This document shows, piece by piece, positions 5,820-52,790 of a stretch of 64,000 nt of DNA (the stretch's first letter is position 1; the number at the start of each line of letters is the position of its first letter). The stretch lies in the NCBI RefSeq assembly GCF_900291465.1, contig NZ_LT985808.1, positions 2,668,184 to 2,732,183 of the forward strand, written 5' to 3'. The notes under the pieces were generated by a model, which was not told where the DNA came from, made no database searches, and saw nothing but the letters and a program-made list of their open reading frames with translations. The DNA is from Bacteroides sp. Marseille-P3684. GTDB taxonomy: Bacteria; Bacteroidota; Bacteroidia; Bacteroidales; Bacteroidaceae. The position numbers and the translations under genes were made by a program.

Positions 5820-8800
5820 CTACTGAACCGAACGGCGGATGGAAGGCGAGCCCCGATGTATCTGCGGAGCGTAATGAGCTCCCCTGGCACCATATCCGGC
5901 GTAGGGTGGAACGACAACACGTGTGGCAGCACCGGCACTGCGCTTGTCGTTGGCGACAAATTTCTCGAACGTGTATTCCTCGCCGGCGTATGTCAGGATA
6001 CGGCGCACGATTGATTCGCGGCTGATGGTACTGTAATAGGGTATGTCGTTATTCATACAGCTGTTTTGCTCTGAACGCCATACCCCGCGATTGTGCATGA
6101 ACCCTCCTTCGAACACGTCTACAATGTCACTATAACGGTCGTCAAAGATGAGATGACTCCAGGGCACCTCGTGCATCTTGCCCGTCAGGGCCAGGTTGTC
6201 ATACCAACCATTGGCTTTCGCCACATTGAAGGCTTCGACATGTCCGCAACAAGTACATGAACAGAAGTCTATGAATTCGTTGTGATAGATGTATTCATCA
6301 CCCAGTTTGCCAAAGCCATGTCCACCAGCCTCATGCTGGATGACTCCGCGTGCATCATACGGGTAACCGTAGTTGCTCATGGGACAGAACGCAATGGCAG
6401 AACCGTCATCCCACATCTGGCAGATGCCGCCGTAATCGGTCGTGTTGGGAGTCATCACAATCAAGGCCCGGTTGAGATTGTCCCGGGTTACCGGAGTGCG
6501 CATGTCCACCACATACTGGAACACGGCATCATAGTCACACCGCAAACCGACTCCTCCCGTGAACGTCGTCCCAAACTTGGAGTAACGGATTGTATTGACC
6601 GTCCCGATTCCACTCTCCGGAGAGAGGGCGATGGCCGTATAGACGTTGAAGTAGTCGCGATAGGTCGTATAAGGCTCGATGGCGAAGAAATGTTCCACCT
6701 GCTCGTTCATGGCTTTCAGGTAATCTCCGCGCGCAATGTCTTCTGCATTGAAGCCATCTCCCAGGAAGACCAGATTGACCCCGTTCCCCTTGGTCGCACG
6801 CTGCAAGGTGACCACTTCATCTTCATCATATTCATAGTCATACTGGGAAACAGTGCATCGGGCGGTATAATCCTTGTCCGTCAGACGGAAGACAATCTCG
6901 CCGGTGCGCTGTTGTGCACCTCGGTTCATGGCATGGATGGTCAGTGTCAGCTCGGTCTTCCGATTGCCTGACGTAGCAGACAGGCTGCACCAGTCCGGCA
7001 TGGAGTCTACCGTCCACTCGCCCTCGGAGTCAATCACCAGCGTACGCTTGCACTCGGTATTGATGGCACAAGCCAGTGCAGGACGGCACACCAGCTCATG
7101 ATGAGCCGTGATGCGTTTGAACTCACTCCATCCCGGTTCTGCTTGATACTGTTGCACCGACGACTCGGGCACCTCCACGGCAAAGTTGTCCTTGGGCACC
7201 CCGTCAAAAGCTTTCCCCTGGACATAAGGCGGAACGGTCCCCTTGCAAACGATACCGCCCAGTCCGGTACACATATAGAACGCATTGTTCATGATGCTCT
7301 CCACCCCGGCAGAGAAGACAATCCCTTCAAGTCCCTTACATTCATAGAAGGCATACTGCCCGATGGTCAGTACCTCTTCCGGAATTTCCAGTATCCCCGA
7401 CAAACGCCAGTTGGAGCCCCCGTCCGGACTTCCAAACACATAGTTTCCAATGGAACGGAGCCTCTTCGGCAAGACGAGCACGCCCGAAAAGTCGCATCCG
7501 TCAAACACATAGTCATTGAGCACCAGCAAGTCTTTCGGCAGGACAAGCTCTCCCTTGAAATGGCATCTGCTGAACGCATGCTTGCCGATGGTGGTAATGC
7601 CGTCATGCAGTTGCAGGGTCCCGTCAAAGCCACAACGTTCGAACACGTTGTCCATAAGAGTCGTCACGCCTTGGGGAATCTCCAGGCTGCCGGTCAGTCC
7701 GGAACAGTCGGCAAACGCATAATCGCCGATGTGCTGCAAGTTCTCCGGCAGATGCAGGCTGCCATACAGATTGGCACAGAACTCAAAACAGTTGTCGCCA
7801 ATGTACTCCAGCCCGGTGGGCAGTTTCAGCTCACAGGCAAACTTGCAATTCTTGAACGGACCGCCATACCAATACTTCTCCTCCCCGTGCCCCAGCCGTT
7901 TCAGCGTAGAGGGCAGGGTGAGTATCCCCGTGAACGACTGGCAGTCTACGAAAGCGCCGGCATAGATATCCGTCACACCCTCCGGAATAGTCAACGAACC
8001 GGAAAGGTTCTTGCAGCCTTCGAAGGCGGCACAATTGATTACTTTCAGGCGGTCGGGCAGAATCAGGCGGTACAGGCTCTCCTTGCCTCCCAATGCCCCT
8101 TCGGGTATCTCGTCCTCATCGTACGTACGGCGTTGCAAGGCGCCCGTACCATAGTGGAGCAACGTGTCCGTACGGGCTATCTTGACCTCTTTCAGGTTGA
8201 GGGACTGCAGATAGTCCATCGAGTCGCGCATGAAGTAAAAGTCCACTCCGTTTATCTCACCGGTAATCTTCAGGTTACGCAGTTCACGAAAATCCTTATT
8301 GGCAGCAAGGATGGCCTCCCGCAAATGCCCCGCTTCCGAATCAATGATGATGTACTCCTTCGCCGTCGCATCATGCGAGGCAAGGTCCGCCTCCCACGGC
8401 GTGACGGACTCTCCCGTCAGTGTGAACACATACTCTCCTGCCGGACTTTTCTTGTCCACCCGGATGGTGAAGTTATGCATCCTGCCGACCTGATAAGTGA
8501 AATCGTCAGCCTTTTTAAAGGTATAGTTGACTCCACCGACAGTCAGGACGAACAGCTCCTTCCCGGCAGGGATCGTCTGTGGAACGACAATGGCGCGATA
8601 TTCACCCCCGTGAGTGTAAGGGATGGTTCCGGTCTCTTCGGGGTCTCCCACGGGGGTCACCGTCCCCGTAGCCAGGTCGATGGTTGCATCGCGGACGGTA
8701 TTCTTCACCAGCACCATCTTTTCCAGCCGCTCCCATTCACCGTCCGCAAAGCCCTCTCCTTTTGCCAGAGTCACGCGGGCATTGCTCATGCGGTGACGGA

Positions 8801-9323
8801 GTGACAGACGGATGACCTTCTCCGTCGGAGCAATCTTCTCGGCTTTTCCCCAAAGGAAATCACTGGCTTCATAACCTCCCAGTGCCCCTCCTTCGGCCGC
8901 ACGCGACTGGTCCTTCTGCACCGTAAACTCGTACGCATTGACATCCCCGGGGGAAGCAAACGGATAATAGCCATAAATGTCGACGGGAGTATGTTCGTCC
9001 TTCCAATAGATGTCGTAGGCAGCATCCCAACGGTAGGCAGCCTCATCGAATGTATGCTTTACATTGGTGGCACGGTTGCCGGCGTCCTGCAAGATTCCGG
9101 GGACATTCCCCTGGTAATCGACGACATACACGCCCATGACGTCACCGTCACAGAAACCGCCGTCGTCCACACGCGTCAGTGCCAGCTGGTCAATCTCTCC
9201 TGCCAGGGTAATCGGCACTCTTTCTGCCTGTCCCGACAGGACCGCCTCTTCCTTGCAGGCGGACAGCCCGCCCAACAGGACGAGACAGAGAATCCCCATA
9301 TAATGATAAATGATGTTCTTCAT
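5820..9323 (-). CDS. Surface lipoprotein: fimbrillin-like + BspA-like LRR + BACON + M64 metallopeptidase
   Basis: A 1,167-residue protein. Residues 1-23 are a lipoprotein signal ending LGGLSAC. About 35-310 is a fimbrillin-like domain (CDGDVMGVYVVDY, DIYWKDEHTPVDIYGYYPF, YEASDFLWGKAE, AIVVPQT). About 370-740 holds BspA-type leucine-rich repeats (for example LPENLQHIGDYAFADCSGL and IPQGVTTLMDNVFERC). About 745-828 fits a BACON domain (WCSLSATSGN, CTVSQYDYE). About 845-1130 is an M64 (IgA-peptidase family) domain with the zinc site HEAGGHGFGKLGDEY: H997, E998, H1002 and D1009. A glycine follows the first H-E-A, as in related M64 enzymes. Likely a surface-exposed adhesin-protease. Flanked by two fimbrillin-like lipoprotein genes at 9 and 29 bp, so clearly cotranscribed. 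Substrate unknown. Confidence 0.9.
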   Translation of the reverse strand: MKNIIYHYMGILCLVLLGGLSACKEEAVLSGQAERVPITLAGEIDQLALTRVDDGGFCDGDVMGVYVVDYQGNVPGILQDAGNRATNVKHTFDEAAYRWDAAYDIYWKDEHTPVDIYGYYPFASPGDVNAYEFTVQKDQSRAAEGGALGGYEASDFLWGKAEKIAPTEKVIRLSLRHRMSNARVTLAKGEGFADGEWERLEKMVLVKNTVRDATIDLATGTVTPVGDPEETGTIPYTHGGEYRAIVVPQTIPAGKELFVLTVGGVNYTFKKADDFTYQVGRMHNFTIRVDKKSPAGEYVFTLTGESVTPWEADLASHDATAKEYIIIDSEAGHLREAILAANKDFRELRNLKITGEINGVDFYFMRDSMDYLQSLNLKEVKIARTDTLLHYGTGALQRRTYDEDEIPEGALGGKESLYRLILPDRLKVINCAAFEGCKNLSGSLTIPEGVTDIYAGAFVDCQSFTGILTLPSTLKRLGHGEEKYWYGGPFKNCKFACELKLPTGLEYIGDNCFEFCANLYGSLHLPENLQHIGDYAFADCSGLTGSLEIPQGVTTLMDNVFERCGFDGTLQLHDGITTIGKHAFSRCHFKGELVLPKDLLVLNDYVFDGCDFSGVLVLPKRLRSIGNYVFGSPDGGSNWRLSGILEIPEEVLTIGQYAFYECKGLEGIVFSAGVESIMNNAFYMCTGLGGIVCKGTVPPYVQGKAFDGVPKDNFAVEVPESSVQQYQAEPGWSEFKRITAHHELVCRPALACAINTECKRTLVIDSEGEWTVDSMPDWCSLSATSGNRKTELTLTIHAMNRGAQQRTGEIVFRLTDKDYTARCTVSQYDYEYDEDEVVTLQRATKGNGVNLVFLGDGFNAEDIARGDYLKAMNEQVEHFFAIEPYTTYRDYFNVYTAIALSPESGIGTVNTIRYSKFGTTFTGGVGLRCDYDAVFQYVVDMRTPVTRDNLNRALIVMTPNTTDYGGICQMWDDGSAIAFCPMSNYGYPYDARGVIQHEAGGHGFGKLGDEYIYHNEFIDFCSCTCCGHVEAFNVAKANGWYDNLALTGKMHEVPWSHLIFDDRYSDIVDVFEGGFMHNRGVWRSEQNSCMNNDIPYYSTISRESIVRRILTYAGEEYTFEKFVANDKRSAGAATRVVVPPYAGYGARGAHYAPQIHRGSPSIRRSVQ

Positions 9324-9352
9324 AGCTTGTATTCTTTCTGTTCATCCGATGT

Positions 9353-10291
9353 TCATTCAGCCACTCCCCCGTGGTCCACTCCGTCGTCTTCCCAACCGCC
9401 GATGCCCACATTGATTCCATTACTTGTCTTGTTGACCGTGATGGTGAAAGTATGTCGATAGCCGGAACGGAAGGTCATCTCGGAGGGCTGTTCCCCCTGC
9501 GTCAGGTTGTAATCCTTGCCGTCGACGGTGATGGTCACCAACCCTTCCACGGCAACCGTCTGCGGGACAACGAGTGCCTTGTAGCCCGCTTGTTCTTTCA
9601 GCGGACGCAAAGCCTGCGGTTTACCGTTTGCCACCACCTTCCCTGTCGCCAGGTCGACAGACGCGCGTGTCTGCAATCCGTTGAGCGTTACCGAGACTTC
9701 GGCCTCCGCCAGGCTCTCCTCCGTAAAGCCATTCCCGGGTTTGACCAAGATGTGTGCCTGGCTGAGCACATGATTGACCGTCACACTCACAGCACGGTTC
9801 GTCGGAGATACCCCGACGGCTGTCCCCCACAGGAAATACCCCGACTTATAGCCGGCAGGTGTCGACTGGTCGGCAGGGACGTCCACTGTCAGGTCATGCA
9901 CAGAAACCGTCTGCCGATAAGGATAGTATACATAAAAGTCCGCCTTGGTCCGATTGTCCGACCAATAAATCGGTTCGTCAGGCGTCCAGGAACCGCCATA
10001 GCTGAAACGCATATTGTGCACATGGTTGCCGGAAGGCTGCAACGCGCCCGCCTGCTCCCGGTCGTAATTCACCACAAACACACCGACGGCATCTCCCGCC
10101 TCAAAGCCGTCGTCAGTTGCCCGCGCCACGGCATAACCTGTCGAAGAGCAGTCCAACGCAATGGGCAGGGGTTTCTCAGGTTCAGGTTCCGACGGTGGAA
10201 GAATCTCGTCAGTTCCACCTCCTCCCGATGAGCAGGCTCCCAGCAGCAGGCACATTGCCACCGTCTGCATACAATTTGTTATTCTTTTCAT
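9353..10291 (-). CDS. Fimbrillin-like lipoprotein, first gene of operon
   Basis: A 312-residue lipoprotein starting MKRITNCMQTVAMCLLLGAC with Cys20 as lipidation site, followed by a Gly/Ser/Pro/Glu-rich linker. The mature domain shares with its two downstream neighbours the blocks FEAGDAVGVFVVNY, PIYWSDNRTKADFYVYYPY, YKSGYFLWGTA, VNHVLSQAHI and ALVVPQTVAV. This internal three-way similarity is the main evidence for the family. An upstream in-frame ATG at 10330 is rejected because it lies above a good promoter (TTG, 20 nt, TACTTTTG at 10319-10350) and would lengthen the signal peptide unnaturally. Probably a fimbrial subunit or anchored adhesin. Confidence 0.83.
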   Translation of the reverse strand: MKRITNCMQTVAMCLLLGACSSGGGGTDEILPPSEPEPEKPLPIALDCSSTGYAVARATDDGFEAGDAVGVFVVNYDREQAGALQPSGNHVHNMRFSYGGSWTPDEPIYWSDNRTKADFYVYYPYRQTVSVHDLTVDVPADQSTPAGYKSGYFLWGTAVGVSPTNRAVSVTVNHVLSQAHILVKPGNGFTEESLAEAEVSVTLNGLQTRASVDLATGKVVANGKPQALRPLKEQAGYKALVVPQTVAVEGLVTITVDGKDYNLTQGEQPSEMTFRSGYRHTFTITVNKTSNGINVGIGGWEDDGVDHGGVAE

Positions 10292-10318
10292 AAAGGTTCT
10301 TTTCTGATGAGTGGATGA

Positions 10319-10350
10319 CAAAAGTAGCAAACTATCGCACGACGGTCAAC
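10319..10350 (-). promoter_or_regulatory. Promoter of the fimbrillin/M64 operon
   Basis: Minus strand: TTG at 10347-10349, 20 nt, then TACTTTTG at 10319-10326. This matches the Bacteroidetes consensus on both boxes and lies 28 bp before the first start codon. Confidence 0.75.
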
Positions 10351-10439
10351 TTTTAGTAAGGTTCAATTAAGTCCAAACATGAAAATAGCTCCACACAACC
10401 CAGTTCCTCTCCCAACCCAACACAAAGGTTTAATCCAAT

Positions 10440-10560
10440 AACCCTGGGGGGATTGACCCGATAAGCCCTGGGGGTTGATGGACCAAAGTATTATACTTAG
10501 GCACCCTAAGTATTATACTTAGCCTACCTAAGTATAATACTTTGGTCTGTCTAAGCCGGG
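10440..10560. repeat. Intergenic tandem palindromes, 22-bp period (AAGTATwATACTT core)
   Basis: Three copies of the perfect inverted repeat AAGTAT-A/T-ATACTT begin at 10486, 10508 and 10530, exactly 22 bp apart, with linkers that differ. CCCTGGGGG-containing units precede them (10442 and 10466) and a CCCCAGG inverted copy follows near 10600. No coding potential is seen. See the finding on locus-specific arrays. Confidence 0.75.
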
Positions 10561-10789
10561 GTTTAATCCGGTCTATCCCGTACTTTAGTCTGCCAAAACC
10601 CCAGGCTTGGTTTATCAAACACTTACGTTTCCCCTGCCAGAGCCCTGTCTTTGCCGCGTCAGACCACAGAGACCGGCTCTCCCAACACGCCATTCAAGCC
10701 CTCAATCCGTCATTGGACGTTGGGTAGATTGCTCTGTTGGAACGAGAGGAAACTTTAAATGGTCGAATGACCAAGTTGGATTAAATAAA

Positions 10790-10830
10790 TTACCCCTTCT
10801 CTGCATTGCCGAAAGCAAGAGAAGGGGTAA
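10790..10830 (-). terminator. Rho-independent terminator of the 10860-11369 gene
   Basis: A 13-bp perfect stem TTACCCCTTCTCT / AGAGAAGGGGTAA. On the minus strand it is followed by TTTATTTAA. Confidence 0.75.
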
Positions 10831-10859
10831 TCGGAATCGTACTATTTGTAAAAATCATT

Positions 10860-11369
10860 TCAGCTGGAGGGCAAATCTTCCTTCAGATAATGAGCAAAGC
10901 CGTATGCTGAGGACCTATCGGCATATCCTCCGACACTTGACGAAGAAGCTTTACTTTGTTCACGCAGGCTGCGTTGCCGTTCATTGTCACGGGCATATTC
11001 ACGCAGAGTTTTTTGTTCGCCCGGCTGGTACAGCGAACTTTCCAGCACGACGTAATCGAGGATGTTGCCAACCGGAGTCAGGTGGGGCAGCAACTTCTGA
11101 TCCAACAGTCCACGGAAGGCTCCTTCATATTCGCAGCAGACCTTCCCATCACGTTGGAAAATACGATAAGTGAAGTTCGACCATGCCGTGTGGATGACAA
11201 TCTCTTTAGGCAAGACTTCTGCCGTTGCCGACAAATCGTAAGCATGGTCTTTGATTCTGATGATTTTCTTGCCGGGCAAGCATTGAATCTCCGTTGCCCA
11301 GAAGTCGGAGTTGGAGAGTTGATCGACGATGTCACTCAAACTCTCTCTAATTACAAACTGAATTTTCAT
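10860..11369 (-). CDS. Conserved-looking protein of unknown function
   Basis: A 169-residue soluble protein beginning MKIQFVIRESLSDIVDQL. No signal peptide or membrane segment is seen. The first ~110 residues look like a mixed alpha/beta domain (IIRIKDHAYDL, EIVIHTAWSNFTYRIF); the rest is low-complexity and serine/charged (REYARDNERQRSLREQ, ASSSSVGGYADRSS). I do not recognise a family. It stands alone, with a strong terminator 30 bp downstream. The codon use matches its neighbours and the reading frame is intact, so it is probably a real gene. Confidence 0.65.
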   Translation of the reverse strand: MKIQFVIRESLSDIVDQLSNSDFWATEIQCLPGKKIIRIKDHAYDLSATAEVLPKEIVIHTAWSNFTYRIFQRDGKVCCEYEGAFRGLLDQKLLPHLTPVGNILDYVVLESSLYQPGEQKTLREYARDNERQRSLREQSKASSSSVGGYADRSSAYGFAHYLKEDLPSS

Positions 11370-11580
11370 GGCTCTCGCCTTTCTGCAAGGACTTTATTAT
11401 GGCATTAGACATATCTCTGATGTAAAAATAAAAGAGAAAAGAATGTCTTGAACTTTTCATTACCATCTTTTAACAAAAAGAAGACAATAGGCATACAAAT
11501 CAAGACAAAATGACAAAGGCGGCGCCCAATGAGCCATAAGATATTTCAAAAAGAATACAATTACATGACAACAATCAGCC

Positions 11581-12825
11581 TCATTCAAACCGGATGGACT
11601 TGGCCGGATGGATACGTGATATCAGATAGGAAGGACCTATCAGGATGGCTACCGAAATAATCAGCGTAGCCACATTCAGCAGCAGCCACAAGCCCACATT
11701 GAAATGAATGGGAACCGCGTCCAGGTAATAATTCGCAGGGTCGAGTTTTATCCAACGGAAGTATTTCTGCGAAAGGCAAAAGGCAAGGGCAATGACATTC
11801 CCCCACAGCATGCCTTTGCCGATAATGAACGTAGAAAAGTAGAGAAAGATTTCACGGATGGAACGGTTATTGGCACCCAGTGCCTTCAAGACGCCAATCA
11901 TATTCGTACGTTCCAGGATAATGATCAACAGCCCGGAAATCATCGTAAAACCTGCCACTCCCAGCATCAGGACCAGAATGACCCAGACGTTGACATCCAG
12001 CACGTCGAGCCAGGCGAACAGTTGGGGGTTGAGGTCGCGAATTGTCTGTGTGAAGTAGGTGTTTCCATAGCGGTCCACCAACGTATCGACCACTTTGCCC
12101 ACATCGTAACGCATGTCCTCCAACTTGTCATAATCGGCAATGGAGACCTCGATGCCGCTCACCTGGTCCGGCTGCCACCCGTTCAATCTGTTGACCGTAT
12201 AGAGGTCGCCTATCAGAAACAATTTGTCGTACTCGGAAAAATTCGTTTCATAGATGCCGGCAATCTTCAGCCGACGGGCACGCACGTTGTCATTGATATA
12301 GTAGGTATAGATGGCATCTCCCAACTTCAGCCGGAGCTTGTCAGCCAACAAACGGGAAATCAGCACCTGGTTCGATGCCGCGCTGTCGGTAAATGCCGGT
12401 ATCTCTCCTTCCAACAGGTAACGTCGGTAGAAATCCATCTGATATTCACCGGCAACACCTTTCAACACCATCCCCTGGAAACTGTCATCGGTCTTGATAA
12501 TGCCCGGCTTCGTGGAGAAACGTTGCACGTGCGACACACCGGGCACATCGGCCAACCGATGCAGCAGGGTGTCATTTGCCGAGATGGGATAGGTCTCATA
12601 GGATTGTGTTCCCCGGAAATTACTGATTTGAAGGTGAGAGCCGAACCCAATGACTTTGGAACGCACCTCATCCTTAAACCCGATGACCACACACACCGAC
12701 ACCAACATGATGGCAAGTCCCAGCGACATGCCAATCATTGCAATGCGGATGGCAGGTTTCGCCACCTGACGTTTGTTTTCGCCTTGGGCATAGATGCGTC
12801 GTGCCAGAAAGAATTTATAGTTCAT
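11581..12825 (-). CDS. FtsX-like ABC permease, LolC/LolE lipoprotein-release type
   Basis: A 414-residue protein with the LolC/E topology: a first helix around residues 28-52 (AIRIAMIGMSLGLAIMLVSV), a large periplasmic domain of about 200 residues, and three C-terminal helices (VWVILVLMLGVAGFTMISG, IFLYFSTFIIGKGMLWGN, LWLLLNVATLIISVAIL). The start MNYKFFLARRIYAQGE is the cytoplasmic N-terminus seen in LolE-like permeases. It would release lipoproteins from the inner membrane for transfer to the outer membrane, which fits a lineage rich in surface lipoproteins. The partner ATPase (LolD) is not in the neighbourhood. Confidence 0.85.
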   Translation of the reverse strand: MNYKFFLARRIYAQGENKRQVAKPAIRIAMIGMSLGLAIMLVSVCVVIGFKDEVRSKVIGFGSHLQISNFRGTQSYETYPISANDTLLHRLADVPGVSHVQRFSTKPGIIKTDDSFQGMVLKGVAGEYQMDFYRRYLLEGEIPAFTDSAASNQVLISRLLADKLRLKLGDAIYTYYINDNVRARRLKIAGIYETNFSEYDKLFLIGDLYTVNRLNGWQPDQVSGIEVSIADYDKLEDMRYDVGKVVDTLVDRYGNTYFTQTIRDLNPQLFAWLDVLDVNVWVILVLMLGVAGFTMISGLLIIILERTNMIGVLKALGANNRSIREIFLYFSTFIIGKGMLWGNVIALAFCLSQKYFRWIKLDPANYYLDAVPIHFNVGLWLLLNVATLIISVAILIGPSYLISRIHPAKSIRFE

Positions 12826-40184: not shown

Positions 40185-40228
40185 CAGGCTCGCCCCCCGA
40201 AGTGATTTCGCGGGGCGAGCCTGTTTTT
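40185..40228 (+). terminator. Rho-independent terminator at the island edge
   Basis: A 12-bp perfect stem CAGGCTCGCCCC / GGGGCGAGCCTG (40185-40196 with 40212-40223), followed by TTTTT. With the promoter at 40075 it defines a transcript of about 115 nt. Confidence 0.85.
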
Positions 40229-41368
40229 GTTAAAGCAGAATACAACCAGCCTCAGGTTACTATTTTTGAGCCATCAGCGTTTCCGTCCCTGCTGGACGAG
40301 AACGGCGAACGAAAGACGTTTGAACGCTTTTTGAACGACGTTCGGAAGGTCGACGAGACCTACAACTCCAACTATCTGCGGGCGGAGTACAACTTCGTGC
40401 AATCATCGGCGGAGATGGCAGCCCGGTGGGAGCGGTTCTCGGAGGACGGCGACCGCTACAACCTGCAGTATCGCACGGCAGGTGACGACAAGGTGCGTCC
40501 GGAACATGCCGCGCTGAACGGTGTGACCCTGCCGCCCTCTGACCCGTTCTGGGAGGAGTTCTACCCGCCCAACGGCTGGAACTGCCGCTGTACCGTGGTG
40601 CAGGTGCGCAAGGCGAAATACCCCGCCACGCCCCACGACGAGGCGATGGCACTTGGCGAGGAAGCCCTGCAACGGGACACGAAGCGAATGTTCCGGTTCA
40701 ACCCCGGCAAGGAGCAGAAGACCTTCCCTGACTACAACCCTTACACCATCCGCCGGTGTCGCGACTGCGACATCCCCAAGGGCAAAGTCAAACTGGCAAG
40801 GTTCGTTCCGGAGAATGAGGTATGTGAGGCGTGTAAACTACTTCGAGGCATCAAAGAGGTTCAAAAAGAACAAATAGAAAAGAACCGCTCCTTGTACGGT
40901 AAACTCATCAAAGACGAGAAATATAAGGATGTCGTCTTTGACGAAAAGAACGGTGGCCTGAAAGCCACCCACATTGGGCACAACTTAGACAAAGACAAAG
41001 GCTGGTATGAGACCACAATACAAAATGTAGGATATAAGCATGGACACTCTGTAATTTTGGAAGAAGAGCCACAAAATGTATATAAGGGTAAAAGTTGCGA
41101 GGGACTTTGGGACAACCTTAAATTTGAGGTTGCAGGTGCTGAAAGCGGCACACCTAACAATATAAGGAATGCACTCAAACATTGCGCATCAAAGCCTGAA
41201 TCAAGAATTGCGGTTCTGTTCTTCCCTAATGGAAACTTCTCTTCGGAGAACTTCCAAACCGGTCTTGCAAAATTCAATGGTCTAAAGGGAACCTCACAGT
41301 ACAAAAAGTTTGATTTGATTTACTGCATCCAAGGTGATGAAATCATACAAATAAAAAAGCCAAGTTAG
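40202..41368 (+). pseudogene. Mu gpF-like phage minor head protein with toxin-like C-terminus, 5'-truncated
   Basis: The frame (388 codons from a GTG inside a terminator hairpin) lacks a proper start; phage homology begins near residue 8. Residues 20-215 match the Mu gpF/SPP1 gp7 head-morphogenesis domain: FLNDVRKVDETYNSNYLRAEYNF and the hallmark PPNGWNCRCTVVQV (122-135). Residues about 240-388 form a separate compact domain (THIGHNLDKDKGWYETT, GYKHGHSVILEEE, GTPNNIRNALKHCAS, IAVLFFPNG, FDLIYCIQGDEII) that resembles CdiA-CT/BECR-type nuclease toxins found at the ends of polyvalent phage head proteins. The downstream end is intact with its own stop. It is probably not expressed as a head protein here. 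Confidence 0.7.
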
Positions 41369-42293: not shown

Positions 42294-42703
42294 TACTTTT
42301 GAGCTATCAGAGACAGCTCGCTTGGTGTTCGGACACAAAAAAAGCCGGTTGTGATTTGCTTCTAAATTACTACCTTTGAACTATCAGAGACAGCAATTAT
42401 AGATGTGACACATTGTGTCTTGATGTTGTGATTTGCTTCTAAATGATTACCTTTGAACTATCAGAGACAGCGTAGTCTATCTATTCTAACCGACAGAGCT
42501 AGTTGTGATTTGCTTCTAAATGATTACCTTTGAACTATCAGAGACAGCTGACGCGGCTCTCTCGTCCGTCGGAGGGGAAGTTGTGATTTGCTTCTAAATG
42601 ATTACCTTTGAACTATCAGAGACAGCGATGCCCTTGTCGTGCGGAAGGCGGGCAGGGTTGTGATTTGCTTCTAAATGATTACCTTTGAACTATCAGAGAC
42701 AGC
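42294..42703 (+). CRISPR. CRISPR array, 47-bp repeats (type II-C-like), 5 spacers
   Basis: Five full 47-bp repeats at 42348-42394, 42425-42471, 42502-42548, 42580-42626 and 42657-42703, plus a 24-bp 3' half-repeat at 42294-42317. The last four are identical (start GTTGTGATTTGCTTC, end CTATCAGAGACAGC); the first full copy differs near its centre. The spacers are 30, 30, 30, 31 and 30 bp and all differ. The 47-bp repeat resembles that of Bacteroides fragilis type II-C systems (from memory). Each repeat carries TTG, 19 nt, TACCTTTG, a Bacteroidetes promoter pointing into the next spacer. No cas9 or cas2 is in the window; a cas1 fragment lies 110 bp away. Confidence 0.95.
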
Positions 42704-45118: not shown

Positions 45119-45337
45119 ATTTTACTCAGTGGACTAAGTATTCTTGCTCAATGCAAAATATCATTTATATTTTATGCAACAAACATTGTTGTTTGAATAA
45201 AAAAACAGTAATATTGTATTTGAATAGTAACATCATACGTCTTGTTCAGATATGTCATGATATGAGAGTCCTGAAACGTACAATGAAGAAAGACGGTTAT
45301 AAAATAGATGTTGTGCCAATCACAGAGTTTTAACTAT

Positions 45338-46537
45338 ATGGATGTTCTGACACATTTCAGAAGCATAGAAGAATTGACCAAGACACTCTCGCGTGAACAA
45401 GGATTACTAAGCGAGATGTTTGAAAAACGGAAGCTCATGAAGTTTCCGGTTGGGCTTGCCATAGAACTTGTCGGAGGAAATGAAACAAGATTGAGGAGAC
45501 TGGTTGACTATGGCGTATTGGTGGAATCTGGCAATACGGTTGAGATAGAGAGTGACTACCTGAACTTTTTCGAAGAAGTACTGAATGTCAATGAGGAAAT
45601 CAGTGTGTTGAGCGTACAGGAGTGTATCAACACCTTGAAGGAGTATATAGGGTATTTTCTGCAAGAGACTAATTCCAATCGTAAAGCCGGATATCAGGAT
45701 AGTGTGCGCCAGCTCTTAAAGAAGACCGGATTCAGAACCTTGAAGAATGTGGTGGATTTGAAGCGTAATATGGACAACGCCTATAAGCAGGAACCCAATT
45801 ATATCATTAAAAAGAAGAAGCTGCAGAATCTGGATGAGAAGGGAAATAGTATTCGCGCAATGATACGTGAATGTGAAAAACTGATGGATAATGAGCAAGC
45901 CTTCTTTATCATGGCAAATGATCCGCACATGGCCAAGACGTGTAGCGAGGTGAAGCATGATTTTGTTGAAGCTTATCATGCGCTAATGGAGATTGACAGA
46001 CAGATTATTTCCTACATCAATCAGATAGACCAGCAGAACAGACTTTACAAAAAGATACGAAAGCTGAAGTATCTGCAAGATCAGTTGCTCATCAAGACTG
46101 ATACGAATATCCTCAATGTATTGGAAGAAAGAAATCCTCTTTGGATGGAATCCCGACAATACAATAGGATTCGTCTGTCTCTGGAAATGCTGAGGGAAAA
46201 TGAACAGGTAGTAAAGTTGCTGAAACGAATTGCCGAACGGAATGGAATACAGAAGATGGCAAGAACGGAAGCTGCTCCCTTGACGGAAGACGACCTGCAA
46301 GAACATGTCCACCAGTTGAAGGAGGTGGATTCTGCCGAAGTATGGAATGCGTTTTTAGCATCAAGCTATAATCTGTTTGAATTCATTCTGAAGTATGACT
46401 ACAAAGTAAAACGTAATATAGAAGAGCATGCTACCCTCTTCTGCCAGTTGGTTATCTTGCACCCTGATGAATGCAGGATAACAGGCGAATATGCAATTTA
46501 CCAAAACATTGAATACCCTGTAATTTATGCGAAATAA
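45338..46537 (+). CDS. jetA: JetA: MukF-like kleisin of a Wadjet system
   Basis: A 399-residue soluble protein starting MDVLTHFRSIEELTKTLSRE (ATG at 45338; 45308 is an alternative). The N-terminal ~80 residues look like a winged helix (LLSEMFEKRKLMKFPVGLAIELVG); the middle is strongly helical and charged, as in kleisins. It was identified mainly by context: first gene of a four-gene unit with SMC-like and TOPRIM proteins in the order kleisin, MukE-like, SMC, TOPRIM that defines JetABCD. It would bridge the SMC heads. It overlaps jetB by 11 bp. A weak promoter candidate (TTG, 20 nt, TAATATTG) lies near 45185-45220. Confidence 0.75.
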   Translation: MDVLTHFRSIEELTKTLSREQGLLSEMFEKRKLMKFPVGLAIELVGGNETRLRRLVDYGVLVESGNTVEIESDYLNFFEEVLNVNEEISVLSVQECINTLKEYIGYFLQETNSNRKAGYQDSVRQLLKKTGFRTLKNVVDLKRNMDNAYKQEPNYIIKKKKLQNLDEKGNSIRAMIRECEKLMDNEQAFFIMANDPHMAKTCSEVKHDFVEAYHALMEIDRQIISYINQIDQQNRLYKKIRKLKYLQDQLLIKTDTNILNVLEERNPLWMESRQYNRIRLSLEMLRENEQVVKLLKRIAERNGIQKMARTEAAPLTEDDLQEHVHQLKEVDSAEVWNAFLASSYNLFEFILKYDYKVKRNIEEHATLFCQLVILHPDECRITGEYAIYQNIEYPVIYAK

Positions 46538-47084
46538 TACTCAAAGAATATACGAGCGGTTAAGCCGAGGGGAGTTCCTTTCGGTAGACAGTGCAGACCC
46601 CTCTGTCCGCCATCTATATGAGGATATTGAGGAAAATCTGGAGGATTATACGGAATACTTCAAGGAAATCGGTCTGCAACTGGAATCTGGTAATGGTTAC
46701 TTCTATTTCTCAAGAATGGGAGAGAGTAAACAGACGATAGAGCAGAAATTGGACAGCTTCTCAAAATGGCTTGACTATCTGGATTTTCTGAAATGCTATA
46801 ATCAGTCATTTGCTGCAGGATATCAATTCCGTAAAAGCCATTTGATAGAACAGATCAGTCTGGATATCGAACTGAAGGAAAAGGCACAGCACCTGTTCAG
46901 GAAATACGGTATGGGCTCAAATGTTGAGATAGTGAACAAACTACTCCAGGAAATGCAGAATATGGGCTTTGCTGAATGTATCAGTGAACTTGATGAAACC
47001 TATAAGATTACTTCGGCCTTCCGTTATGCCGAGGAACTAGTGGATATAATTCAAATAGCAAACGAAGATGAAATACCTGAATAA
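46527..47084 (+). CDS. jetB: JetB: MukE-like subunit of a Wadjet system
   Basis: A 185-residue protein starting MRNNTQRIYERLSRGEFLSV. It is mostly helical with a winged-helix feel (YFKEIGLQLESGNGYFYFSR, KLLQEMQNMGFAECISELDETYKITSAF), as expected of the MukE/JetB class. It overlaps jetA by 11 bp and jetC by 17 bp, so translation of the three is coupled. In Wadjet complexes JetB dimers bind the kleisin JetA. No catalytic motif is expected or seen. The identification rests on position, size and fold pattern. Confidence 0.75.
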   Translation: MRNNTQRIYERLSRGEFLSVDSADPSVRHLYEDIEENLEDYTEYFKEIGLQLESGNGYFYFSRMGESKQTIEQKLDSFSKWLDYLDFLKCYNQSFAAGYQFRKSHLIEQISLDIELKEKAQHLFRKYGMGSNVEIVNKLLQEMQNMGFAECISELDETYKITSAFRYAEELVDIIQIANEDEIPE

Positions 47085-50000
47085 GATAATCTTTATCAAT
47101 AGTGCCAATATTCCGTATGCAGAGATTTCCGTAGATGGAAATGTGCATTTCACGGGAACTCAGGGTGTCGGTAAAAGTACGGTATTGAGAGCACTGCTGT
47201 TTTTCTACAATGCGGATAAACAACATTTGGGCATCCAGCAGGGACAGAAATCGTTTGATGATTTCTATTTTCATCAATCGAACTCTTATATACTTTATGA
47301 GGTGATGCGTGATAATGGGGCCTATACGATACTTGTCAGCAGGTATCAGGGGCGTGCTTCGTGGAGGTTCATTGATGCTCCTTATCAACGTGAATGGTTG
47401 ATTGACAACGGCAAGCAGGTATTGAGTGACTGGGTGAAGATTCGTGAACGTATAGACAAGGATGTGGCTGTGTCTGCTAGAATAGAATCCGGTGTGATGT
47501 TCAAGGATATAATCTTCGGTAACACTCATGACTATAAATATACACGTTATGCACTGGTGCAGAGTTCACATTATCAGAATATCCCACGCAGTATTCAAAA
47601 TGTTTTCCTGAATACAAAGCTCGATGCGGACTTTGTCAAGAATACCATCATACAATCGATGACAGATGAAGATTTGCCCATTGATTTGCAGACCTACAGA
47701 CGCCTTGTTACGGACTTTGAGCGTGAGTATGACGAGATAGACTGTTGGTTCCGCCAATCACGTGATGGCAGTTATCCGGTGCGTCAGCAGGCATTGAAAA
47801 TAGCCGAACAGGGGCGTACAATCGTAGCACTTGACCAGCAATTGCTGGACGTATGGCGTATGCTCAATTATGCTGTAGCTTATAATGAAGAGCATATACC
47901 TCTTTTGAAAGCCCAAGCAGCAGATATTGGAGCGGACCTGGAGAAAGAGCATAACCGTGGGAAAGAACTTACCGCAGAATATGAAAAAGAAAAAGACTCG
48001 CTGAATCAGGACCTTGGTGCAAAGAAAAGTAAACTAAAGGAAATAGCGCAGGCAAGAAAGGATTTCGAATCCATGGGTATTGAGGCTATACTCGCTCGTG
48101 CCGACCGGGAGACAGCTGTCAAGCAGGAAATGACGGAGAAACAAACACTATTGGATGATTTATTGAAAACCCATGCATCGATAGAAGAAAAGTACAACAT
48201 TGCAAGGGGTAAACTGGAAAATGCACGTCAGGCATTCGAGAACATCCAGAAAGAGGCGTATTATCAGAAACAGGACGAACTTCAGATAAGGCGCAAGAAG
48301 GTAGAGGAAGAACGTACAAAAAGCAGGAATCAGATTATGGAAGCTTTCAACAGCTGGAGACATGACTCGGACGAGCGTCTGCAAATGTTGTTGGCTGAAC
48401 AGAGTAAGGCTGATAACGCACTGAAGGAACTTCGTCAGTGGCATCCGAAGGCTGTTGAAATAAAACAGGTTGATGATGAATTGCAGCAATTGGATTTTAT
48501 GGAGAAGGAGAACGCCATACAACAAGTAGCTGTACGAAGTCAGATTGATCGGATTACTGCCGAGTATGAGATGAAAGAAACGGAAATAAAACAGGAGTTC
48601 CAGCGTGAGCAGGAACGTCTTGAAACTGACCGGACACAAACGCGTGAACAAATCACGAAAATCAATAACTTATTGGCTCATTTGGACGGCTCTCTTTACA
48701 AGTGGCTTTGTGAGAATGCCGAAGGTTGGGAAAACACAATAGGCAAAGTCGTTGACGAAGAAAGGATTCTGTATGCTCAAGGGCTTGAACCTCAGTTGGA
48801 CACTGGGACTGATGGTATGTTTGGCGTAAAGTTAAACCTGGATAATATTGCCTACGTACATCGTACGCCTGACGAATATAGATCGGAGAAGAATAACTTG
48901 GAAGAGCTAGTGCGACAAATCAACCGTCAGCTCACACAATTACCTGTTACTCTTGAGGGAGAAATTTCTAAACTTGGTAAGAAATATGCTGCACAAGTGA
49001 ATCCACTTCGTCAGAAAATGACATCGTTGAAGGTGGAAGAAGGACAGATTCCTGTAAAGCGACAGAATCTGCAAACCCACAGACACAAGCTGGAGATGGA
49101 AGAGCAGGAGCAAATTAACCAGGAAAAAGAAATCCGCAAACGTGCTTTTAATGAAGCAGTACTGAAAGTGAATTCAGAAAAGGATACTCGTAATAAGAAT
49201 GAAATAAAGAATAAAAAGGACCTTAAGGATCTTGATTTATCATTTAATAAGGCTGTGAAGGTTCTCGAAGAGGAATTGCGCCTTTTCAAAGAAAGACAAG
49301 AGATTGAGGCTACCACACGTAATCATGAGTTCGCTGTGCAGAAGAAACAGCTTGATGAACAGCTGGTAGCTGAACTTGCAGGCAAAGGTGTTGACACGAA
49401 ACTGCTCGAACAATATCGTAAGGCTTTGGATGAATTGAAGGAACTATTAAAGAGTATTGAAAATGAACGTGCAATTGTCATCAGATACCGCGACACTGAG
49501 CAAAATCTCTTTGCTAAGGAACCGGAAATCAAAAAGGACATCAAGACCATTGAACAGCAACTCACAATGATACGTCAGCGTTATGAAGACAAGCGGACGC
49601 GTATCGAGAAAAAATGCAAAGAAATGGACGAACGGCTGAAGCGGATTCTTAAGGAACTCACGCATCGAAGGGAAGGTTTGGAACTTTATCATCAGGTGGT
49701 AGAGAATGAACATCTGGTACCTGATACTTTCCTCTCTGATGACAAAACGAAGAGTACCGAGCAGGATTGTCAGCAACTGTTGAGTCAACTTAGAGGCACG
49801 GTCAATCAGAAACGTGAATCGATAGACAAGCTTAAATACATCGTTGTCAGTTTCAATCGTAACTTCAAGCCTCAAAATGCTTTTCATTTCAATACAATGC
49901 CCGTAACAGACAATGACTATCTGCAGATTGCCGTGGATTTGCAGGAGTTCATGGACAACAATAAAATCGAGGAGTTCCGCAGGCGCACCAGCGAACATTA

Positions 50001-50718
50001 TAAGGATATCCTGGGACGTATTTCAACAGAAATCGGCTCACTGATGAAGCGCAGATCGGATGTAGACGAAGTGATACAAGCCATAAACCGTGATTTTATA
50101 GAAAAGAACTTTGCAGGTGTAATCAAGAGTATTGAACTCAGAGCAAATGAGTCTTCAGACAAGCTTATGCAACTGCTCATATCCATCCACGATTATGCGG
50201 CAGAAAATGCCCTTTCAATCGGCGAATTGAATCTTTTCTCAAGTAATAACCGGGATGACGTGAACCGTAAGGTTGTGGATTATCTGAAGAGTTTGTCTCA
50301 CCAGTTGCAAAACGAGCCCAATCGTCCGACAGTATCTTTGGGGGACGCTTTCCGTTTACAGTTCCGTGTGAAAGAAAACGACAATGACACCGGTTGGGTT
50401 GAACGTATTAACAATGTAGGATCGGATGGTACAGATATTCTGGTGAAAGCGATGGTCAATATCATGCTCATCAATGTTTTTAAGAAAAAGGCAGCCAAAA
50501 AAAGTGGCGATTTCATTGTACACTGCATGATGGATGAGATAGGACGCTTGCACCCCAACAATATAAAAGGCATTCTGCAGTTTGCCAATTCACGCAATAT
50601 CTATCTCATTAACAGCTCACCGACATCGTATAATCCTTACGATTACCGCTATACGTATCTGTTAAGTAAACATGGGGTAAAGACGAGGGTGGAAAAATTG
50701 TTGAAACGAATAAACTAG
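47068..50718 (+). CDS. jetC: JetC: SMC-like ATPase of a Wadjet system
   Basis: A 1,216-residue SMC-family protein. Walker A is GTQGVGKST (residues 30-38), directly after an N-terminal strand, as in SbcC/MukB-type ATPases. Two long charged coiled-coil arms (about 270-560 and 640-1000, e.g. EKEIRKRAFNEAV) flank a globular hinge-like centre (about 560-640: CENAEGWENTIGKVVDEERI). The C-terminal head has an ABC signature-like GSDGT (about 1118-1122) and Walker B FIVHCMMDEIGRLHP (Asp about 1156, Glu 1157). This is the DNA-loop-extruding motor. Its start lies within the end of jetB and jetD follows 8 bp after the stop. Confidence 0.92.
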   Translation: MKYLNKIIFINSANIPYAEISVDGNVHFTGTQGVGKSTVLRALLFFYNADKQHLGIQQGQKSFDDFYFHQSNSYILYEVMRDNGAYTILVSRYQGRASWRFIDAPYQREWLIDNGKQVLSDWVKIRERIDKDVAVSARIESGVMFKDIIFGNTHDYKYTRYALVQSSHYQNIPRSIQNVFLNTKLDADFVKNTIIQSMTDEDLPIDLQTYRRLVTDFEREYDEIDCWFRQSRDGSYPVRQQALKIAEQGRTIVALDQQLLDVWRMLNYAVAYNEEHIPLLKAQAADIGADLEKEHNRGKELTAEYEKEKDSLNQDLGAKKSKLKEIAQARKDFESMGIEAILARADRETAVKQEMTEKQTLLDDLLKTHASIEEKYNIARGKLENARQAFENIQKEAYYQKQDELQIRRKKVEEERTKSRNQIMEAFNSWRHDSDERLQMLLAEQSKADNALKELRQWHPKAVEIKQVDDELQQLDFMEKENAIQQVAVRSQIDRITAEYEMKETEIKQEFQREQERLETDRTQTREQITKINNLLAHLDGSLYKWLCENAEGWENTIGKVVDEERILYAQGLEPQLDTGTDGMFGVKLNLDNIAYVHRTPDEYRSEKNNLEELVRQINRQLTQLPVTLEGEISKLGKKYAAQVNPLRQKMTSLKVEEGQIPVKRQNLQTHRHKLEMEEQEQINQEKEIRKRAFNEAVLKVNSEKDTRNKNEIKNKKDLKDLDLSFNKAVKVLEEELRLFKERQEIEATTRNHEFAVQKKQLDEQLVAELAGKGVDTKLLEQYRKALDELKELLKSIENERAIVIRYRDTEQNLFAKEPEIKKDIKTIEQQLTMIRQRYEDKRTRIEKKCKEMDERLKRILKELTHRREGLELYHQVVENEHLVPDTFLSDDKTKSTEQDCQQLLSQLRGTVNQKRESIDKLKYIVVSFNRNFKPQNAFHFNTMPVTDNDYLQIAVDLQEFMDNNKIEEFRRRTSEHYKDILGRISTEIGSLMKRRSDVDEVIQAINRDFIEKNFAGVIKSIELRANESSDKLMQLLISIHDYAAENALSIGELNLFSSNNRDDVNRKVVDYLKSLSHQLQNEPNRPTVSLGDAFRLQFRVKENDNDTGWVERINNVGSDGTDILVKAMVNIMLINVFKKKAAKKSGDFIVHCMMDEIGRLHPNNIKGILQFANSRNIYLINSSPTSYNPYDYRYTYLLSKHGVKTRVEKLLKRIN

Positions 50719-50726
50719 TCCGTACC

Positions 50727-51593
50727 ATGGCTATAAGTACATCGATACAAGCATTGCTGGCTGGTGAACAAGTCGCCGGTTCAAAGCTAAGCCGTAAGTT
50801 ACTTGACGAACTGTTGGCAGAAGGTATGCTATGGGTAAGTTCGCATGGTTCCAGGAAATCCTATCGTGCTCGCGACACGGAAGCCCTTAAAAGATTTCTT
50901 ATGGATAAGGATGAAAGTTATCGGATTCTTGAAGTAAATCTTACTGATTCCCGTGCGTCAATGGCAATGGGGACAGGGAACTCCAAACTGGTTACGATTC
51001 GCTCCTGCCCCGGATTCCCGGTAAACAGCTACGAACCGATTGAATGTTTTCTTGACGAAAAGCCTTTTATGGTCAATCCACAGGAAGGAAGCTTTCTCTT
51101 TGTTTCAGACTGGGAAAAGCTTACAATTCCGGAAAACGTGGTAGTAATTGGTGTTGAGAATATGGAGAACTTCAGGATGATTCGTAAGCAAAGAGCTTTC
51201 TTTGAAGCATATCTTACAGCACATGACTTTTCCAACAGAATACTCTTTGTATCCAGATATCCACAATCCACAGATCTTAGAAGATGGCTATGCTCCATTC
51301 CCAATCATTATCTTCACTTCGGCGACTTTGATTTGGCTGGAATAAATATATTTCTCGTTGAATTCCAACAATATCTAGGTAAGGAACGGTCTTCCTATCT
51401 AATTCCGGGCGACATTGAATCCCGCTTGAAGGCTGGTTCCAACAAACGATATGATGAACAGTATAGCTATTTTAAGGATATCAAGTCAGACGTATTCGAG
51501 TTGCAGCAACTGATAGCTTTAATTCATCGGGAGCGAAAAGCCTATGATCAAGAGGGGTATATATGCTGTCATTCGAATCAAACTTCCGATTGA
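50727..51593 (+). CDS. jetD: JetD: TOPRIM nuclease subunit of a Wadjet system
   Basis: A 288-residue protein. An N-terminal winged-helix-like part (LLAGEQVAGSKLSRKLLDEL) is followed by a TOPRIM domain with the catalytic Glu in VVIGVENMENF (Glu144) and the D-x-D motif in LHFGDFDLAGINIF (Asp200, Asp202). TOPRIM proteins of this class are related to topoisomerase VI A; JetD cuts plasmid DNA after the JetABC motor has recognised its small circular size. It is shorter than the usual JetD of about 380-400 residues, so the N-terminal arm is reduced. Last gene of the operon, with no frame damage. Confidence 0.88.
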   Translation: MAISTSIQALLAGEQVAGSKLSRKLLDELLAEGMLWVSSHGSRKSYRARDTEALKRFLMDKDESYRILEVNLTDSRASMAMGTGNSKLVTIRSCPGFPVNSYEPIECFLDEKPFMVNPQEGSFLFVSDWEKLTIPENVVVIGVENMENFRMIRKQRAFFEAYLTAHDFSNRILFVSRYPQSTDLRRWLCSIPNHYLHFGDFDLAGINIFLVEFQQYLGKERSSYLIPGDIESRLKAGSNKRYDEQYSYFKDIKSDVFELQQLIALIHRERKAYDQEGYICCHSNQTSD

Positions 51594-51903: not shown

Positions 51904-52320
51904 TTTTATTTTAAATAGCAAGCCATGGACGACAAATTTTCATCAATCAACTCAAAATGCACCAACGGGAGCTCCATCAGCTCATGCACCGTCGGCTTCC
52001 GTCCTCATCGAGCGCATGGCAAAAAAAACGGACGATTTAATATCCGGTATAAAATAGAAAAAGACAATGGAATGCGTTAACCCGGGTCCTAAGCCCATTG
52101 GGCGCGTTTACCTCCACTGTCTTTTTCGCAAAACTAGATATTTTATTTTAAATAGCAAGCCATGGACGACAAAATTTTCATCAACCAACAAGCGTACCAA
52201 CGTGAGCTCCATCAGCTCATGCACCGCCGGCTTCCCGTCCACATCCACCACACGGAAACGTCCCAGTTCTTTTTGAACCCATTTGGCAAAGTTGGTAATC
52301 TTACTATTGTAATATTGTGA
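51904..52320 (+). repeat. Two tandem copies of a phage-gene 5' end (gpG-like)
   Basis: The block TTTTATTTTAAATAGCAAGC + CATGGACGACAAA occurs at 51904-51936 and 52141-52173, 237 bp apart, and similarity continues for about 60 bp more. The second copy encodes MDDKIFINQQAYQRELHQLM followed by HRRLPV before diverging, with a stop at 52320. The first is frameshifted. This start resembles phage virion-morphogenesis (Mu gpG-like) proteins, a tentative match from memory. Both are truncated. Confidence 0.5.
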
Positions 52321-52449
52321 AGTAGTTCCGTATTTCAACCCCATGACACTACATGTTCCCTTATGCTCCGGTTCCCGTAAGAAGCATAGCAATACGTCAA
52401 TATAGGGTGCTGCTTTTTCTTTATTGAGCAAATACGTCCATTCTTCCAT
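52108..52449 (-). pseudogene. Fragment resembling the N-terminus of McrB-like restriction proteins
   Basis: Minus strand from the ATG at 52449: MEEWTYLLNKEKAAPYIDVL, REPEHKGTCSVMGLKYGTTS, QYYNSKITNFAKWVQKEL and VVDVDGKPAV. The pattern ATC/GTC-S-L-x-x-KYG-x-x-x-x-YN is that of the N-terminal domain of several Bacteroidetes McrB-like or HNH defence proteins. From about 52240 downward the frame reads antisense through the duplicated phage fragment, so the rest of the gene is lost. Only the fusion product could be made. Assignment uncertain. Confidence 0.45.
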
Positions 52450-52790
52450 AGAGATACCGATATCACCACAGGTATAGAAACAAACCATCCTCCCCCCCCT
52501 TGACATTCTGTCAAACGAAGCCCTTCACAGTGCCTTTCCTTGCACCGAAATAGGAGTTGGTGGATTTCGAGGGGCTTCTCAGGCGATTAGCGAAATACAC
52601 TTTGTCGGCGAAATGCGTCTGGCGCTTTCTTTCGGGAAGGCGGAAGGCTATGGATGCTCACCGATCGCATCCGGCACGCAAGACTCCGCACATCGTGTTA
52701 CCTTCCGATTTGTTGACACGGCACTCCTTCTGGAAAGCGAAACTCACTATTCTTTACCTCCATTTTCCAAAGATTTGACTTCCGAGGACG

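Follow-up and report, generated by a model that had tools for sequence, protein, structure and literature searches.

The question raised by this locus is whether four adjoining genes of Bacteroides sp. Marseille-P3684 encode a Wadjet (JetABCD) system, as a preliminary description made from the letters alone had proposed. The genes, A to D, lie within a 64,000-nucleotide stretch of contig NZ_LT985808.1 (positions 2,668,184 to 2,732,183), which is referred to here as the window and whose numbering is used throughout. Our analysis makes it likely that they restrict plasmids as a mobile operon of the Wadjet-like (JetABCD/MksBEFG) kind, one that forms a lineage of its own; this function is read from sequence and from analogy to type I systems. 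Judged by the predicted proteins, this lineage combines a DUF3584 structural maintenance of chromosomes (SMC) ATPase with the signature GS[DE]GT, an MksE KITE protein, a kleisin of ~400 amino acids (aa) and a TOPRIM nuclease of ~280 aa. The kind of system is known, but the operon represents a compact-nuclease variant of it that had not been charted, and the GSDGT signature and the short D mark this variant.

Four intact genes in a conserved order

Open reading frames of the window were read, and four intact frames without internal stops were found on the plus strand at 45338-51593, in the order that had been described:

45338-46537, plus strand: A, putative MukF/JetA-like kleisin, 399 aa (gene position and low-confidence model)
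46527-47084, plus strand: B, MksE/JetB-like KITE protein, 185 aa (Pfam PF21980 MksE, 1.3e-40)
47068-50718, plus strand: C, SMC ATPase (MukB/MksB/JetC-like), 1216 aa, signature GSDGT (Pfam PF12128 DUF3584, 2.8e-50 over residues 18-1186; conserved motifs)
50727-51593, plus strand: D, compact JetD/MksG-like TOPRIM nuclease, 288 aa (winged helix at ~1-66, TOPRIM at ~93-285)

A and B overlap at 46527-46537, B and C overlap at 47068-47084, and C and D are separated by 8 bases. The start of A was set at 45338 rather than at 45308, the start given by the reading-frame tool, because 49 of the 51 relatives with a readable A have an ATG at this position and A measures 398-399 aa in all 51. The identification of A as a kleisin is predicted from its place in the operon and from the structure model.

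A scan of genome contigs with C returned 58 other loci (L002-L059) with 62-99% identity in the best segment. The recurrence of the operon in these loci shows that it is not a chance arrangement. Their record titles name Bacteroidales or groups within that order, except for one metagenome-assembled genome (MAG) labelled Bacillota. The order A, B, C, D was kept wherever found. In all 51 loci that could be judged, meaning those with the C end and 900 bp beyond it, D began no more than 200 bp after C (7 of the 58 were not judgeable). Lengths were counted for genes whose aligned start and stop both lie within the sequence, with loci cut by a contig end or with a broken start dropped and the window copy (L001) included for B, C and D. 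B was 185-186 aa long in 54 of 54 copies and C was 1201-1226 aa long in 45 of 47, the two short ones being those of L052 and L055. In L033, L048 and L050 the match to C is split in two. Instead of overlapping as they do in the window, B and C are ~1.6 kb apart in L010 (7402-9001), a possible insertion inside the operon.

The ratio of nonsynonymous to synonymous substitution rates was 0.035-0.104 over the four genes and four relatives (16 comparisons); in several pairs synonymous divergence exceeds 1 and is therefore not reliable. On the branch leading to the window, the assigned changes were mostly synonymous (synonymous versus nonsynonymous: A, 38 versus 13; B, 17 versus 2; C, 126 versus 40; D, 43 versus 10). 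These results support purifying selection on the operon, as had been suspected.

Conserved motifs of the ATPase and the nuclease

The Walker A motif of C (GTQGVGKST, residues 30-38), its signature (GSDGT, 1118-1122) and its Walker B motif (MMDE, 1154-1157) are invariant in 25 SMC sequences including that of the window, save for T31 (at least 90%). In the Bacteroidota lineage, members without D included, GTQGVGKST occurs in 34 of 34 printed SMC rows and GS[DE]GT in 33 of 34, the exception being L093 with RSDGT; the 34 rows are the printed part of 82 SMCs collected, and some of them show one locus twice. The SMC of plasmid pPP3 has GSEGT with a different Walker A motif. Both type I SMCs printed carry LSGGE (LSGGEKA in the control operon described below). 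The signature, previously singled out as unusual, therefore differs from that of type I systems and is normal within its own family, and the idea that GSDGT marks an inactive signature was rejected.

The same holds for the length of D. Its 288 residues are few beside the 375 aa of a type I JetD, but all 53 complete copies, the window copy included, measure 275-296 aa, and a truncated or frameshifted JetD was rejected on this count. Since the length of D and the GSDGT signature are kept across the family, they are inherited family traits and not defects. The catalytic residues named beforehand (Glu144, Asp200 and Asp202) are present and invariant in 43 D sequences including the window's. Across nine D proteins, one type I JetD among them, the TOPRIM glutamate and DxD and a C-terminal QE (E144, D200, D202 and Q275-E276) are invariant.

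The structure model of D matched MksG, topoisomerase VI A (Topo VI-A) and JetD in a second-look structure aligner, and aligned with residues 206-374 of 7til and 218-380 of 8b7f; the proposed comparison with Topo VI-A thus came out in favour of the assignment. The N-terminus of D is modelled as a winged helix of ~66 aa in place of the ~200-residue N-terminal part of JetD (the DUF3322/CAP-like arm), and Pfam found no DUF3322 in D.

A Wadjet-like system outside the catalogued types

Wadjet profiles of PADLOC-DB 2.0 matched C at 8.7e-6 (best stretch, residues 1-59) and D at 3.5e-4, and did not match A or B. In contrast, a type I control operon from the same bacterial family (L123 in genome G075; 485, 189, 1141 and 375 aa) was recovered by PADLOC at 2.7e-190, 7.1e-57, 0 and 5e-149, and carries the Pfam families DUF3375, DUF4194, JetD_C and DUF3322. 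Types II and III entered the comparison as PADLOC profiles. The NCBIfam search of the four proteins gave nothing near a cut-off. Profiles of the four families did not match solved chains (three searched up to an E-value of 1, one up to 0.01), and in single-sequence searches of the PDB D had no match and C had a chance match at 0.81.

Compared with type I Wadjet (Escherichia coli, Pseudomonas aeruginosa PA14) and with MksBEFG of Corynebacterium glutamicum, the operon has the same set of kleisin, KITE protein, SMC and TOPRIM nuclease, the same E..DxD and C-terminal QE, and a JetD/MksG/Topo VI-A fold. It differs from type I in the absent profile matches of A and B, in having GTQGVGKST with GS[DE]GT where type I has GANASGKST with LSGGE, and in a D of ~280 aa with a small winged helix where the control D has 375 aa and a DUF3322 N-terminal domain. 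As a kind of system (SMC, kleisin, KITE, TOPRIM nuclease: JetABCD/MksBEFG), Wadjet is well supported by sequence, motifs and modelled fold. Its membership of the catalogued types is not supported. The poor PADLOC and NCBIfam matches, the lack of a PDB sequence match and the absent JetD N-terminal domain place it, on sequence grounds, in a distinct compact-nuclease lineage outside the Wadjet types as modelled in PADLOC.

Several results weigh against the assignment to Wadjet and to defence. PADLOC is blind to A and B and only marginal for C and D, the model of A is of low confidence, and the long JetD arm is absent from D. Foldseek with the D model returned nothing below 1e-3, its top two rows being Spo11 at 1.0e-3 and 1.2e-3, so the JetD/MksG fold match rests on the second-look aligner. 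Compared by hhalign with one type I JetD, the D family scored poorly (probability 2 over 39 columns around the DxD), which speaks against close kinship of the two. ABC is also found without D, and this core may serve other uses.

Operons of the same Pfam families (DUF3584, MksE and DUF7281) were found on plasmids of Pseudomonas sp. Leaf58 and Vibrio breoganii. Their D proteins are of similar size (281-285 aa), but the gene order is C-B-A-D and the SMC is far diverged and lacks GS[DE]GT. The annotation of these plasmids calls A, B and D hypothetical, and the yfbR label placed on one B belongs to a different, upstream gene. The best PADLOC matches were marginal (JetD2 at 5.2e-5 for the Pseudomonas D, AriA at 3.2e-7 for the Vibrio SMC) in a scan covering four of four Pseudomonas and two of four Vibrio proteins. 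An Aromatoleum plasmid has a similar gene set by annotation and similarity, and a Persicobacter plasmid has a D of 285 aa that is 36% identical. The deep SMC tree carries long-branch warnings, and the place of the proteobacterial and pPP3 rows in it is unsure.

C had no relative among 50,697 phage records and no D was confirmed in viral contigs; phage carriage was rejected on these results. Exchange of D between SMC backbones was likewise rejected: there was no clear swap, and a class of D with a 4-residue deletion requires three changes on the SMC tree, one of them forced.

According to the relevant passage of a 2023 review, most research so far has been on type I Wadjet. In the openly licensed PubMed Central (PMC) literature, 'type IV Wadjet' and 'Wadjet type IV' did not occur, which is not proof of absence. 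The same literature did not mention DUF7281 and held nothing on Wadjet together with Bacteroidales, plasmid and SMC; papers mentioning DUF3584 were present, none of them with Wadjet in the title (by title listing).

A mobile cassette that is trimmed in the window

A cassette consisting of an ATPase gene followed by ABCD recurs in Parabacteroides distasonis (L005), Bacteroides muris (L006), a Prevotellaceae MAG (L007) and a Parabacteroides MAG (L009), the copies being 98-99% identical over 8.28-10.5 kb. Outside the cassette, L005, L007 and L009 differ from one another. The loci of Phocaeicola faecium (L003) and Bacteroides fluxus (L048) are 96% identical over 7.76 kb. These identities indicate that the cassette moves between Bacteroidales hosts, with a host range that MAG binning could inflate. 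Terminal inverted repeats or flanking duplications of at least 9 bases were not found in four cassettes. An 18-kb stretch of another genome of the window's genus (G036) matched the window only over 45295-51563, at 85%; the flanks thus differ within the genus too.

Three features precede A in the window:

45152-45178, no strand: interrupted palindrome of 27 bp (TGCAaAATAT...ATATTTTATGCA), candidate operator, from alignment with relatives
45152-45235, plus strand: conserved upstream region, presumed cassette promoter, from an alignment of the window with seven relatives that have it in front of the ATPase gene
45272-45333, plus strand: putative relic, the last ~20 codons of a PDC-S01-type AAA_14/DUF4143 ATPase gene, 85% over 61 columns to the gene end of L003

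In 14 of 53 other loci, A is preceded on the same strand by an AAA_14/DUF4143 ATPase gene or its remnant, with 8-31 bp between the two; several loci have too little upstream sequence to judge. The ATPases form two subfamilies, one with nine loci and the other with five; in L033 and L047 remnants alone are present, and L013 is cut by a contig end. Both subfamilies match PDC-S01, a PADLOC phage-defence candidate (2.2e-105 and 5.5e-154). The window genome has four other genes of this kind, 25-33% identical, so the adjacency is not due to mere abundance. Because related cassettes are not independent, no more than two acquisitions of the ATPase can be claimed. By these comparisons, an ATPase gene upstream of A is a frequent fifth member of the cassette in close relatives, and the window has lost it except for its tail. 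The operon is therefore complete and intact, as originally called, with respect to its four genes, but not with respect to the ancestral five-gene cassette.

The upstream region matches L003 at 5941-6013 in DNA. TTTG and TATTTG-like elements vary among the relatives; hence no precise promoter was called. In L003, L015, L026, L042 and L048 the palindrome pattern precedes the ATPase gene and lies ~1335 bp upstream of A; the distance to A is 393 bp in L033 and 186 bp in the window, and L011 has a poorer match. By the pattern used it was not found in the other loci, and the matches were counted without a chance control.

At the other end, D of the window leaves its relatives at the last codons, with a few residues added after YDQEGYI. 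The YDQEG motif itself is intact, and the C-termini of the relatives vary beyond it. With the upstream ATPase reduced to a tail and the 3' end of D lying at the junction, the window cassette reads as cut back at either end as far as the four genes.

Patchy distribution and loci without the nuclease

MksE was found in 23 of 121 genomes of the window's family (22 over the cut-off), type I JetB-like matches included, and had no match in the other 98. D was found in 20 of the 121, and in one of these (G112) it is a broken relic that lies on a different contig. Twenty of the 23 C loci that passed the cut-off had an adjoining D, and D was absent at the three others read (G013, the second locus of G062, and G112). 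In the genus, D is present in 2 of 15 genomes, and in 2 of the 6 that are at least 90% complete. In a sample of 345 genomes of the phylum, three of them from the family, the D profile matched the window's own genome and gave one doubtful match. The general, vertical presence in a clade that is expected of a housekeeping condensin (MukBEF, MksBEF, Smc-ScpAB) was not seen, and the patchy distribution argues for defence rather than housekeeping.

ScpA was not detected in any of the 121 family genomes, compared to 283 of the 345 phylum genomes. Canonical SMC over the cut-off was found in none of the 15 genus genomes, with weak, short matches below the cut-off in 14, and the window genome has one SMC of the DUF3584 type. 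Given the absence of ScpA from the family, ABC is the only SMC-kleisin complex recognised by sequence in its genome.

The loci without D (Parabacteroides distasonis L060, G013, G062 and G112) resemble nuclease-less MksBEF condensins. They share with the window operon the SMC lineage, the signature and the order of ABC, but have no D gene beside ABC. L060 comes from a Bacteroidales 'plasmid' record with chromosome-like genes, which may be a mislabelled contig. L119 (G062) and L121 (G080) occupy one shared site and have 91% identical ABC DNA, with D only in L121. Where L121 has D, L119 has a 4.7-kb block (7794-12519) encoding a TolB-like protein, a Porph_ging protein and an 883-aa protein without a Pfam or PADLOC match. 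Five of the 28 rows on the SMC tree are D-less, and this label requires three changes, at least two of them forced by starred branches, under long-branch warnings and with the direction unassigned.

Surroundings of the operon

The surroundings had been described as decayed, with pseudogenes on both sides. This is plausible and partly tested: six flanking frames between 41.4 and 53.7 kb, outside the operon, had no passing Pfam family. The genes htrA, RNase P and rbn to the right of the operon are kept in the fetched genomes of the genus, and the operon is not at that place there. Left of the operon, at 40202-41368, lies a gene for a phage Mu F-like protein (PF04233), perhaps a phage remnant. 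A CRISPR array at 42348-42703 has five 47-nt repeats with ~30-nt spacers (Rfam CRISPR-DR49) and a partial repeat at 42294. No Cas protein was found among the 20 other window proteins scanned. The array did not match phages, and gave one weak match in a Phocaeicola plasmid record, perhaps to the repeat. To the right, at 52108-52506 on the minus strand, is a 132-aa open frame without a Pfam or PADLOC match.

The neighbour families that recur in at least four loci comprise two of ATPases, one that is mnmE-like and another. In L004, L007, L008, L024, L030 and L053, the mnmE-like gene, so named by eye, is found downstream of D and on the opposite strand. In L030 and L053 it is 48 bp from the operon, a possible insertion hot spot.

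Discussion

By analogy to type I systems, the operon probably destroys small plasmids. ABC would extrude DNA loops as a dimer of SMC motors; once a small circle has been fully reeled in, the motors would meet and the DNA would be bent, and a D dimer (E144, D200/D202, Q275-E276) would then cut the bent DNA. The winged-helix front end of D presumably replaces the long arm of type I JetD in ABC docking, autoinhibition or DNA holding.

ABC could instead be an MksBEF-like chromosome condensin in a family without Smc-ScpAB, with D as a decatenating or repair accessory and not a defence effector. The missing ScpA (0 of 121 versus 283 of 345 genomes), the lack of canonical SMC over the cut-off in the genus (0 of 15, with sub-cut-off matches in 14), the single DUF3584-type SMC and the D-less loci are in line with such a role. 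So are the relevant passages of a Hi-C study (PMC10197239), according to which a known condensin was found in neither Bacteroides caecimuris nor Muribaculum intestinale, and weak arm alignment was seen in one of them. However, MksE is missing from 98 of 121 family genomes and D from 13 of 15 genus genomes (9 of the 15 being less than 90% complete), and the cassettes move between hosts, whereas a housekeeping condensin should be general and vertically inherited. We consider the condensin reading very unlikely. The complex might also act on phages, sensing phage DNA circles or replication intermediates that D would cut. SMC-like Lamassu systems act against phages or plasmids, according to the passage concerned in the 2023 review, and close relatives often carry the upstream gene of the phage-defence candidate family PDC-S01. 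The want of confirmed phage or viral relatives of C and D is neutral in this respect; we regard an anti-phage role as unlikely.

The operon could, finally, be inactive, its frames persisting but silenced by the loss of the upstream ATPase and by the new 3' end of D. The upstream gene is indeed reduced to ~20 codons, and the last residues of D are replaced by junction sequence. Against this, changes on the window branch are mostly synonymous (126 versus 40 in C, 43 versus 10 in D), the upstream region is retained next to A, the YDQEG motif of D is intact where the C-termini of relatives vary after it, and many relatives have no such ATPase beside A. We give inactivity little credence, and favour an active plasmid-restriction operon. 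A more far-reaching reading holds jointly that this is a fourth, uncatalogued Wadjet type, that its minimal nuclease shows the long JetD arm to be dispensable, that the PDC-S01 ATPase is an optional fifth subunit, and that the ABC core has repeatedly shed its nuclease to become a chromosome condensin, with interconversion at one locus. Taken as a whole, we hold this to be doubtful.

D offers a natural minimal JetD for work on mechanism and structure, and the pair L119 and L121 at one site could serve to test a possible path from defence SMC to condensin in a family in which ScpA was not detected. If the compact-nuclease lineage restricts plasmids, plasmid restriction in gut Bacteroidales would be under-counted by the defence profiles used.
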